Position numbers and translations under genes: made by a program
The notes under the pieces: model-generated
The model's database searches: none
Told to the model about the DNA's origin: nothing
The model's input: the letters and a program-made list of their open reading frames with translations, nothing else
Shown: positions 26,977-31,250 of the stretch, piece after piece
Numbering within the stretch: position 1 is the first letter of the stretch
Layout: each line of letters opens with the position of its first letter
Source: Pelagibacteraceae bacterium AG-337-I02
GTDB taxonomy: Bacteria; Pseudomonadota; Alphaproteobacteria; HIMB59; GCA-002718135
Assembly: GCA_003282155.1 (NCBI GenBank)
Contig: QBZY01000001.1
Location: 108,312 to 172,311, forward strand
Length of the DNA: 64,000 nt
Direction of reading: 5' to 3'

Positions 26977-28351
26977 AATTTTACTGCCATCATTTGTTGT
27001 TTTACTTTTATTAAAAATAAGTGCTTTAAATTTTACTACTTTTAATTTGTTTGGCGATGAAGCACAGTATTGGTTATGGTCAAAAGATATTGACTTTGGT
27101 TATTATTCGAAGCCTCCTTTTTTGTCCTGGATAATAAGAGTTTATACTGAAATATTAGGTAGTAGTTTTGTTTCATTAAAACTTCTGCCATCATTTGTCT
27201 ATTTATTGATAGCCTGGAGTGTTTATAATCTTTTATTTAACTCAGGACTAAATAAAAAAGATTCATTTGCGGGTTGTTTAATTTTTTTATTTATACCCGC
27301 TGTTTCTTTTTCATCTTTTATAATTAGTACTGATCTTTTTTTATTATTATTTTGGACACTTTCACTTAATGAATTAATTAAGATCAATAGAGAACAAAGT
27401 TTAAAAAATTTTATATTATTAGGTATTTTTCTGGGGCTAAGTTTTTTGTCAAAATACGCAACTATATATTTTATAATTTGTTTATTGGTTTTAATTTTAT
27501 TTGATAAAAGATTTAGAAAAATTTTTTTTGATAATTTATTAGGTTTTAGTCTTACTTTTTTATGTGTATTTATAATTGTTGTACCAAATATTATTTGGAA
27601 TTTTAACAATGACTGGATAACACTAAAGCATACTACGGATAATGCGAATTTTGGAAATATTGAAATAGATCTCATTAGGGGTTTAGAATTTTTGTTAGTT
27701 CAAATTATAATGTTAGGTCCATTTATAGTTTTAGGTGGGTTATTTGGATTTAATAAACGTAACTATATTCAAAAAATTTTTCTAATATTTTCTATGCCTA
27801 TAATTTTAATTGTTTTTGTAGAAGCTATTATTGTCAGAGCTAATGCAAATTGGGCTGCTCCAGCTTTAATTTCTTTGTTTGCTCTTTTATATATTAGAAT
27901 TAATAATTCTTTTTTAAAAATGGCTAATTACATATTTAATTTTATTTTCTGCTTTATTCTTTTTGTAATGATTGGAATGAGCTATCCGTCAAAAATTTTT
28001 AACCGAATAAGCGGTATAAATGATTATGCTTTAAAAATTTACAGTAGTTCTTCAGATGGTGTCGTAAAAAATATAGTAGTTTCAGATCGGCTATTATTTT
28101 CAAGCCTTAATTTTGAATTAAGAGATAAGGATATTAATTTCTATATGCCGCATAAAGAAGGGGATGAAATAACAAACCACTTTAAAATAGTGTCTCCTCT
28201 TAGTAGAAATATAAATAAAAACTTTACTTTAATTGGGAGCCCCTCAGATATAAATTATTTAGAGAATGAATATATGGTGCTAAAAATAAATTCACCTGAT
28301 CAGAAATTTATAAAAAGAAAACTTGATGTTTACGAGGTTATCTTTGAATAA
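26966..28351 (+). CDS. ArnT/PMT-like GT39-family glycosyltransferase
   Basis: FGDEAQYWLWSKDIDFGYYSKPPFLSWIIR; polytopic. Confidence 0.85.
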   Translation: MLNKILLPSFVVLLLLKISALNFTTFNLFGDEAQYWLWSKDIDFGYYSKPPFLSWIIRVYTEILGSSFVSLKLLPSFVYLLIAWSVYNLLFNSGLNKKDSFAGCLIFLFIPAVSFSSFIISTDLFLLLFWTLSLNELIKINREQSLKNFILLGIFLGLSFLSKYATIYFIICLLVLILFDKRFRKIFFDNLLGFSLTFLCVFIIVVPNIIWNFNNDWITLKHTTDNANFGNIEIDLIRGLEFLLVQIIMLGPFIVLGGLFGFNKRNYIQKIFLIFSMPIILIVFVEAIIVRANANWAAPALISLFALLYIRINNSFLKMANYIFNFIFCFILFVMIGMSYPSKIFNRISGINDYALKIYSSSSDGVVKNIVVSDRLLFSSLNFELRDKDINFYMPHKEGDEITNHFKIVSPLSRNINKNFTLIGSPSDINYLENEYMVLKINSPDQKFIKRKLDVYEVIFE

Positions 28352-28997
28352 ATTTCTATTTTTTTTTATTATATTTGTAATTAATACTTCGTGTGCAAAT
28401 AATTTTAGTGCAGAATATAAGGTCAGCACAACAGGAATTAAAATTGGTAATTTTAGTTGGTCATTAAATATTAATGATAATATCTATCAAACAGAAATTA
28501 ATTTAAAAAATTCTGGCATTTTTTCACCCTTATATAAATTTGAAGGAAGCTATCTTTCAATTGGGGTTATTGAAAACGGTATATTTAAGACTCAGAATTA
28601 TAAACAATTTTGGAAAACGAATAAGAAAACAAAAATAGTTAAAATGTCTTTTGATGATTATTTAATTGAATTAAAACAAGAACCAATAGAAGAAGAAATA
28701 GCTAGAGTAAACCTAAAAAACTTATATTTTTATTTTGACCCAATCACCTCTTTTATCAATATTTTAAATGGGGAAGATGAGGCAAAAACTATTGATGGAA
28801 GAAGAATTTATAAATTAAAAAAAAATGAAGTTGAGAATGGAAATATAATTTTAATAATTGAAGACTACACAAATATTTGGGCTGATCATAAAAGAAATGA
28901 TTTAAAAAAAATTGAATTTTTTATTGAAAAAGATTTTCTTCCATATGAAATTCTTATTCATTTTAAAGAAAGAATCTTTAAGCTAGAAAGAATTTAA
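28323..28997 (+). CDS. DUF3108-like exported protein
   Basis: Signal/lipobox INTSC; AEYKVSTTGIKIGNFSWSL. Confidence 0.5.
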   Translation: MMFTRLSLNKFLFFFIIFVINTSCANNFSAEYKVSTTGIKIGNFSWSLNINDNIYQTEINLKNSGIFSPLYKFEGSYLSIGVIENGIFKTQNYKQFWKTNKKTKIVKMSFDDYLIELKQEPIEEEIARVNLKNLYFYFDPITSFINILNGEDEAKTIDGRRIYKLKKNEVENGNIILIIEDYTNIWADHKRNDLKKIEFFIEKDFLPYEILIHFKERIFKLERI

Positions 28998-29533
28998 AGT
29001 TTTCTTTTTCTTAAATAAACAAAAAGAGCTCCGTCCCCCCCATGTTCAAAACCTGCGTCTTGATATGTTAAGATATATTTCTTAAGATCGTCTTCGTTTA
29101 TCCAGTTTATTATTGAGTTTTTAATCTTTCCATAGAAAAGTTTGGGGTTTGCATCTTGCTTATTTTCAGTTTTTTTATGAACTCCCTTTCCAGTAATTAT
29201 AAGCAAGCATCTTTTGTTCTTGTTATAATTTTTTTTAACTTCAATTATAAATTTTTCATATGCTTCGACTAAACCGTATCCATGAAGATCAATTCTTCTA
29301 TCTATATTAATTTTTCCCCTCTTAAGCTCCTTGTTAAACTCACCAAAGGTTAAATTAAATTCTGAACTACTAACTTTGTGTTCGGTTATTATTTGTTTAA
29401 TGGTATTTTTAGTGTTAGCTTTTTTATCTAATTTTATATTTTTTTTATTGATTGTTTTTTTTTTAATTGTTGAAGTATCTTTTTTAAAAGGCTTTACTCC
29501 TTTCATTTTTTTTAAAAAAAAATCTTCTTCCAT
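28994..29533 (-). CDS. Smr (MutS2 C-terminal) domain protein
   Basis: RIDLHGYGLVEAYEKF, LLIITGKG, HGGDGALFVYLRK. Confidence 0.88.
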   Translation of the reverse strand: MEEDFFLKKMKGVKPFKKDTSTIKKKTINKKNIKLDKKANTKNTIKQIITEHKVSSSEFNLTFGEFNKELKRGKINIDRRIDLHGYGLVEAYEKFIIEVKKNYNKNKRCLLIITGKGVHKKTENKQDANPKLFYGKIKNSIINWINEDDLKKYILTYQDAGFEHGGDGALFVYLRKRKL

Positions 29534-29961
29534 TATTTTCTAGTGTAGTTTTTAATCAAATTTTTTACTCTTTCAGGGGTTTGTAAATACCACAAGCTGT
29601 CTAGCATCTCTAGTGATGCCATAAATTTTTGTTTTTTATTTAGAAAATAAAGCATTTTTTTAAACTTAGAGACACCCTTCTCTCCAAGCTGAAACAGCAT
29701 TTCTATTAATAATTCTTTTTCTGAAGTTGTGTGCTGTTTCTGAAAAAAATTTTCTTTGTATTGATTGTGTGCCTTTTTAAAATCTATTTCAAACACTTTT
29801 TCAAAATGGTTTTTTTTGTATTTCTTTATATGATAATTATTCTCATTTTTTGTGATGAGGTGCCCATAACCAATTGTATATAATCCTAATTGATCTTTAT
29901 AAGGTTTATGTGAATAACCTTCGTTTTTTTTAATCCGATATTTAAGTTTTTTAAAAGACAA
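29533..29961 (-). CDS. T4-type lysozyme (glycoside hydrolase family 24), no obvious signal peptide
   Basis: E-x8-D-x5-T catalytic pattern (EGYSHKPYKDQLGLYTIGYGHLITK); LFQLGEKGVSKFKKML and SLWYLQTPERVKNLI match T4 lysozyme landmarks. Confidence 0.85.
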   Translation of the reverse strand: MSFKKLKYRIKKNEGYSHKPYKDQLGLYTIGYGHLITKNENNYHIKKYKKNHFEKVFEIDFKKAHNQYKENFFQKQHTTSEKELLIEMLFQLGEKGVSKFKKMLYFLNKKQKFMASLEMLDSLWYLQTPERVKNLIKNYTRK

Positions 29962-29964
29962 ATA

Positions 29965-30546
29965 TTAAGTTTGGGTTAATATCCATATAGGGCTCGAAGA
30001 GTTTACAGGTTTTTCAAAAGTCCAAGTGTCTTTATTTTTAACTATAGAACCCTCATCATTGTTTAACATCTGTTCACTAATAAAATTGACCGATATTGAT
30101 ATTGTGTTGTTTTCTACTTTTGCATCTGAAATACCTTCTACAATAAGTGAATAAAATTGAGATTCTGGATTGTTTGTTTTTTCATCAATTGCTTTTTCAA
30201 AAGCAGAATAAACATCCTTAGACACAAGATTTTTAAGTGTTTTCTTATCTCCGTTGTTAAAAGATGAAATTATAATTTCAAATGCTTTCTTGGCACCATC
30301 AAGGAACTCTCTGTGGTTAAAATTATTTATTTTTTTATATACAACTTCAAGCTTTGTCTCATTGTCCATTAGTGCTGGTATTTTTTGAACATCTTCTTGT
30401 TTTTTGGTTTCTTGAGGTTTTGGATCTGAAATATTTTTTTGAAATCCTGTTCTTTTCCCAAGAACACTTCTTAATCTATAAATAATAAATCCAGCAATAG
30501 CTGCAAAAATTAAAATATCAAAAAACTGAAGATCGCCGTAAATCAT
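29965..30546 (-). CDS. Tim44/TimA-like domain protein
   Basis: N-terminal TM then FLDGAKKAFEIIISSFNNGDKKTLKNLVS. Confidence 0.85.
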   Translation of the reverse strand: MIYGDLQFFDILIFAAIAGFIIYRLRSVLGKRTGFQKNISDPKPQETKKQEDVQKIPALMDNETKLEVVYKKINNFNHREFLDGAKKAFEIIISSFNNGDKKTLKNLVSKDVYSAFEKAIDEKTNNPESQFYSLIVEGISDAKVENNTISISVNFISEQMLNNDEGSIVKNKDTWTFEKPVNSSSPIWILTQT

Positions 30547-30575: not shown

Positions 30576-31250
30576 TTAATAGTTAAATTTTTTCCAAAGG
30601 GGGTTTTTTAGTTTTTTTAACATTTCTTTATGAGCAAGATAATCCTCTTTGTAAACTTCTATAATTTTAGTTTTTGTTTCGTTTTTGTTGTTAATTTGTG
30701 TGTTTTTTTCATCATCGTTAGAATCCAACTCCATAGAAAACTGCTTACCCCCTCTTAGCTCTAAATAGACTGCGGCTAAAAGCTGGGAGTCAAGTAGGGC
30801 TCCATGGAATGATCTATCCGATAAATCAACATTAAACCTTCTACACAAATAGTCGAGGTTAGCTATTCTTGTGTTTAGAACTTCTCTTGCGAGTGAAACG
30901 GTATCAACTACAGGGTTATTTAAGGGAGATAAACCTAAGATTGATAACTCATTATTTATAAAGCCCAAATCAAATGATGAGTTGTGAATAATTAATGTGT
31001 CATTTTTCAAAAAACTCAAAAGCTGCTTGTGGTTTTCTTCAAATGGTTTTTGTTGACTAAGAAAATTATCTGAAAGACCTACAATGTTTTTTGCTGCTTC
31101 ACTTATGCTTCTATCTGGTTTACAATAAAATTGGAGCGTGTTTCCTGTAGGAACATAGTTTTTGAGTTCAACGCAACCAACTTCTATTATTCTATCGCCG
31201 GTCTTATAGTCAAGACCTGTGGTTTCTGTATCAATTACTATTTCTCTCAT
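30576..31250 (-). CDS. dnaQ: DNA polymerase III epsilon subunit
   Basis: REIVIDTETTGLDYKTGDRIIEVG. Confidence 0.95.
   Translation of the reverse strand: MREIVIDTETTGLDYKTGDRIIEVGCVELKNYVPTGNTLQFYCKPDRSISEAAKNIVGLSDNFLSQQKPFEENHKQLLSFLKNDTLIIHNSSFDLGFINNELSILGLSPLNNPVVDTVSLAREVLNTRIANLDYLCRRFNVDLSDRSFHGALLDSQLLAAVYLELRGGKQFSMELDSNDDEKNTQINNKNETKTKIIEVYKEDYLAHKEMLKKLKNPLWKKFNY

Follow-up and report, generated by a model that had tools for sequence, protein, structure and literature searches.

GH24 enzymes of the T4 type act on polymeric murein, and the lysozyme of phage T4 itself depends on a holin. Endolysins that cells have domesticated include the pyocin Lys protein, the endolysins of gene transfer agents and those of holin/endolysin secretion cassettes. 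To our knowledge, active endolysins are normally kept by cells only inside prophages or phage-derived machines. MltA is a murein enzyme of a different kind, a secreted lipoprotein that makes anhydro ends. Here we describe a widespread family of small-genome ocean bacteria that keeps a lone endolysin gene in a housekeeping operon.

A T4-type lysozyme gene between Tim44 and Smr

The gene lies in a 64,000-nucleotide stretch of DNA from Pelagibacteraceae bacterium AG-337-I02 (contig QBZY01000001.1), which was analysed as a whole and is referred to below as the window. The initial annotation placed here a 142-residue GH24 lysozyme resembling that of T4, flanked by genes for Tim44 and Smr proteins and with dnaQ nearby. 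All of these assignments held. The features of the locus are:

29533..29961, minus strand: GH24 T4-type lysozyme gene (142 aa, TTG start, triad E14/D23/T29; assigned by PF00959 and fold)
29959..29967, minus strand: junction made of the Tim44 stop codon TAA, three bases and the lysozyme TTG; no Shine-Dalgarno sequence seen
29965..30546, minus strand: Tim44-like domain protein, with a single hydrophobic segment near the N-terminus (PF04280, E=5e-20; hydropathy maximum 1.98)
28994..29533, minus strand: Smr-domain protein, its ATG overlapping the lysozyme stop codon (TAATG; PF01713, E=7e-15)
30576..31250, minus strand: dnaQ-type exonuclease, 5′ of Tim44, a conserved neighbour in relatives (PF00929, E=3e-30)

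The Pfam model Phage_lysozyme (PF00959) matches the 142-residue protein with E=2e-9 and a score of 38.2 bits (cut-off 22.3), and sequence comparison with T4 lysozyme structures gives a match at E=6e-16. The AlphaFold model (pLDDT 92) aligns with T4 lysozyme (2lzm and others; Foldseek) at a TM score of 0.86 and 32% identity. Residues E14, D23 and T29 are the equivalents of T4 E11, D20 and T26, with the spacing E-x8-D-x5-T, and are unchanged in all 23 host and viral lysozymes aligned; the Q-L-G and QTP-x-R regions likewise contain several residues that are invariant among the host and viral homologues. Most likely, the host gene encodes a muramidase with an intact active site, whose enzymatic activity we infer from these features.

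The order of genes is dnaQ, Tim44, lysozyme and Smr, followed on the opposite strand by an ORF with a sub-threshold match to DUF3108. Tim44 and Smr are present at each of the 131 lysozyme loci recovered, always in the order Tim44-lysozyme-Smr (the loci represent 81 distinct genes from several genera, some genomes being counted twice via different collections; flanking by Tim44 and Smr was inspected in detail at 48 of them). The gene is thus conserved in relatives and is limited neither to one genome nor to a phage remnant, the two circumstances that, taken together, the initial annotation had regarded as fatal to its proposal. No phage or prophage setting with a holin was found at any of the 131 loci, all of which have housekeeping neighbours, and a search for conserved small membrane ORFs near the host lysozymes returned none apart from antisense shadows. 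The DUF3108-like ORF (28323-28997, plus strand, TTG-started; 25.7 bits against a Pfam threshold of 26) is kept next to the lysozyme locus across the family.

Phage origin and distribution

The gene had been proposed to be a domesticated phage endolysin, and its phylogeny bears this out. A tree of 73 rows unites the 25 host representatives in a single clade (support 100/100), which falls within a group of pelagiphage and marine-virus lysozymes and apart from other alphaproteobacterial GH24 proteins; the exact sister group of this clade is uncertain, as the tree has only 142 columns. The best named phage matches all come from Pelagibacter phages (36-45% identity), the nearest being HTVC119P (45%), Baldr (42%) and HTVC111P (41%). 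Neither Tim44 nor Smr is carried by any of the viral loci fetched. Among host genes the median dN/dS is 0.084 over 1286 pairs. The single, fully supported host clade argues for one capture from a virus lineage; the fixed gene order and the low dN/dS show that vertical descent under purifying selection followed across the family.

Host lysozymes have a mean pI of 9.8 and 21% lysine, and their viral homologues (loci L129-L208) a mean pI of 5.2 and 9% lysine. We considered this charge reversal as an adaptation to export and rejected it: the lysine content of host Smr, CoaE and AroE is about that of the lysozyme, so that the difference is at least partly a matter of host composition.

The order HIMB59, also known as AEGEAN-169 or SAR11 subclade V (PMC10308909), consists of two families, HIMB59 and GCA002718135 (PMC10734472). 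The two families separated by our genome searches match this published pair: the genome of the window falls in family GCA-002718135, and its sister family is presumably the HIMB59 family, the one that includes both pure cultures obtained from the order. The named records nearest to the window lysozyme are mostly uncultured alphaproteobacterial single-cell genomes; AG-891-K05, the reference genome of genomospecies GCA002718135-1.A (PMC10734472), encodes a lysozyme 82% identical to it (locus L081). Among genomes at least 80% complete, the GH24 lysozyme is found in 38 of 45 from family GCA-002718135 and in 0 of 25 from the sister family, where Tim44 and Smr are immediate neighbours. A genus-level search gave GH24 matches in 43 of 61 genomes. 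Most of the genomes used are partial single-cell assemblies, and all 21 family genomes without the lysozyme also lack the neighbouring Tim44. These absences therefore appear to be assembly gaps, and the gene is probably universal within family GCA-002718135.

Translation start

By projection, the host lysozyme starts with TTG at 131 of 131 loci (its position in locus L004 being unclear), whereas ATG is the start codon in 85 of the 87 viral homologues and the other two offer no candidate start. Tim44, Smr, dnaQ, aroE and rho at the host loci almost always start with ATG. Across 62 distinct lysozyme genes of 426 nt, codon 1 is constant while codons 2-6 vary. At the 48 loci examined in detail, the TTG lies 1-6 nt past the Tim44 stop codon and no Shine-Dalgarno sequence is recognisable before it. 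This arrangement suggests that lysozyme translation is likely coupled to that of Tim44 by termination-reinitiation. Weak start codons limit expression, as does the UUG start of E. coli cyaA, and the TTG may similarly hold lysozyme expression low. A literature search on the host gene and on TTG-started endolysins found nothing relevant.

Two other ways of reading the junction were examined. Readthrough or frameshifting could fuse the lysozyme to Tim44 and thereby provide a membrane anchor; this was rejected, since the spacing between stop codon and TTG ranges from 1 to 6 nt and the frame between the two genes is consequently not conserved. A missed upstream start encoding a signal peptide was rejected as well, the TTG being the only in-frame start after Tim44 at 47 of 48 loci. 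In locus L004 (lysozyme at about 1442-1893, same contig as L109), the conserved TTG is not in the lysozyme reading frame. The one TTG that is in frame sits further upstream and overlaps Tim44, which points either to a shifted start or to an error in a homopolymer. That upstream start is only a few codons further up and likewise adds no hydrophobic stretch.

Location and role of the protein

Identity, fold, active site, single origin and conservation of the lysozyme have been shown computationally. The role of the protein is harder to assign. The initial annotation had remarked on the lack of an evident signal peptide, and this extends to the whole set: the N-terminus is hydrophilic, the start lies 13 residues ahead of the catalytic glutamate, and none of the 131 copies has a signal peptide, a hydrophobic N-terminus or a membrane segment.

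We tentatively favour, at a confidence somewhat short of even, a low-dose housekeeping muramidase that works in the periplasm after a signal-independent passage and has its weak start as a safety catch. On this view, the ancestor of family GCA-002718135 captured a pelagiphage-type endolysin gene once. The gene settled beside Tim44, where other alphaproteobacteria have MltA, and was kept thereafter as a vertically inherited cellular gene. Ribosomes ending Tim44 would restart a few bases on at the invariant weak TTG, resulting in low synthesis, and the small dose of enzyme would reach the periplasm without a signal and cut the glycan strands of peptidoglycan as a housekeeping function. Such a role is suggested by the apparently universal retention of the gene and its strong constraint: in plankton living at low density, both point to an advantage for the single cell. 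Against it, the simplest reading of a protein without signal peptide places it in the cytoplasm, which is free of murein. Moreover, the lysozyme fills no obvious gap, since the sister family has neither lysozyme nor MltA and other lytic transglycosylases remain. In its most specific form, a constitutive wall enzyme of a streamlined, free-living bacterium that is dosed by the TTG and passes the inner membrane independently of Sec, Tat and holin, possibly via its coupled Tim44-domain membrane partner, we consider the proposal unlikely.

The same lack of a signal could mean that the enzyme is stored. The lysozyme would then wait in the cytoplasm and cut the wall once the inner membrane is breached, for instance by the holin of an infecting phage or upon cell death, causing rapid lysis. 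A precedent exists in pyocin-driven explosive lysis and in gene transfer agents, both of which employ domesticated endolysins; the host protein is signal-less like T4 lysozyme, no conserved holin-like gene accompanies it, and an invariant weak TTG fits a stored hazardous enzyme. However, selection would hardly favour altruistic lysis in dilute plankton, where this gene is nonetheless probably universal and strongly constrained, and the locus is a housekeeping operon with no defence or prophage context. We regard storage for lysis as possible but rather doubtful.

Absence of an export signal from 131 of 131 copies also agrees with an enzyme that remains cytoplasmic for good and acts on imported wall fragments, on precursors or on some other beta-1,4 glycan, so that no export would be needed. 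Judging from charge distribution, the Tim44 domain of the neighbouring gene product probably faces the cytoplasm. Against this reading, the active-site residues are the same as in the phage enzymes, and T4-type GH24 enzymes act on polymeric murein; we consider this alternative improbable. The low-dose periplasmic muramidase remains our preferred reading.

The MltA position

The initial annotation had described the order Tim44-mltA-Smr as common in alphaproteobacteria and the lysozyme as occupying the MltA slot. The first two members of this order proved solid: among the best-scoring MltA loci in the class, outside the order, Tim44 adjoins MltA in 29 of 30, and it is this position beside Tim44 that the lysozyme holds. 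Smr as the third member is less general, as it was detected directly after MltA in only 4 of the same 30 loci. Among the best matches in 386 genomes of the class that lie beyond the family, no GH24 gene occupies the Tim44-adjacent slot. A literature search on the Tim44-MltA pair found no relevant paper.

In the window's own genome (79% complete) there is no MltA (PF03562), the presence of which elsewhere in the genome was the other finding that the initial annotation had named as a refutation. Nor does it turn up in the rest of the order: MltA was detected in 0 of 70 order genomes, 20 of them at least 90% complete, with positive controls, as compared with 220 of 289 genomes of the class. This pattern, together with the exact occupation of the Tim44-adjacent slot, would suit a lysozyme that assumed the wall-turnover task of MltA when mltA was lost, as the annotation had suggested. 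Replacement stands as far as position is concerned; replacement of function finds no such support. None of 25 sister-family genomes carries either MltA or lysozyme, so a substitute does not always accompany MltA loss, and loss evidently required none. In addition, the genomes that bear the lysozyme keep MltG, an MltB-type protein and two SLT proteins, one of the Slt type with about 580 aa and another that is small, which likewise led us to reject the lysozyme as sole glycan hydrolase. MltA is a secreted lipoprotein that produces anhydro ends, whereas the lysozyme is a hydrolase, and none of its copies has a signal peptide for export to the periplasm. Functional replacement is therefore unsupported, and we rate it as quite improbable.

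MltG (YceG, PF02618) was found in 8 of 8 genomes tested from the lysozyme family (G000, G073, G064, G062, G082, G081, G077, G080) and in 0 of 4 from the sister family (G083, G096, G102, G106); a second murein glycan enzyme thus sets the two families apart.

The clear phage ancestry of the gene might suggest a remnant, degenerate or recent, that has no function; this is contradicted by the conservation data (a gene intact at all loci, with dN/dS of 0.08, an invariant triad and an order of neighbours fixed over several genera) and is extremely improbable.

Comparison with known systems

A fixed weak start combined with no export signal makes it testable how a signal-less muramidase benefits its own cell. 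It also becomes testable whether the Tim44-MltA pairing reflects a functional link that survived the exchange of one partner for an unrelated wall enzyme.

The host lysozyme shares with the product of T4 gene e the fold, the E-D-T triad, the C-terminal W-Y-x-QTP-x-R region and the absence of a signal peptide. It is shorter (142 against 164 aa), only 32% identical, and encoded by a cellular gene that lies in a housekeeping operon, starts with a weak TTG and has no holin nearby. Its closest named relatives, of the same length class, are the endolysins of the Pelagibacter phages HTVC119P, EXVC032P Baldr, HTVC111P and HTVC200P. These are acidic and ATG-started whereas the host copies are basic and TTG-started, and they lie among small phage ORFs, unlike the host copies; in HTVC119P, the lysozyme is accompanied by several small ORFs whose products have a hydrophobic segment. 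MltA resembles the host lysozyme in the location of its gene beside Tim44 and in acting on murein glycan strands, as the lysozyme is expected to do, but belongs to an unrelated family with a different chemistry and is secreted, whereas the lysozyme has no signal peptide. Finally, as in the domesticated endolysins described elsewhere, a phage lysis enzyme has been kept by the cell. Those enzymes are induced, and their genes belong to phage-derived clusters or lysis cassettes, whereas the host lysozyme stands alone in a dnaQ-Tim44-Smr operon.
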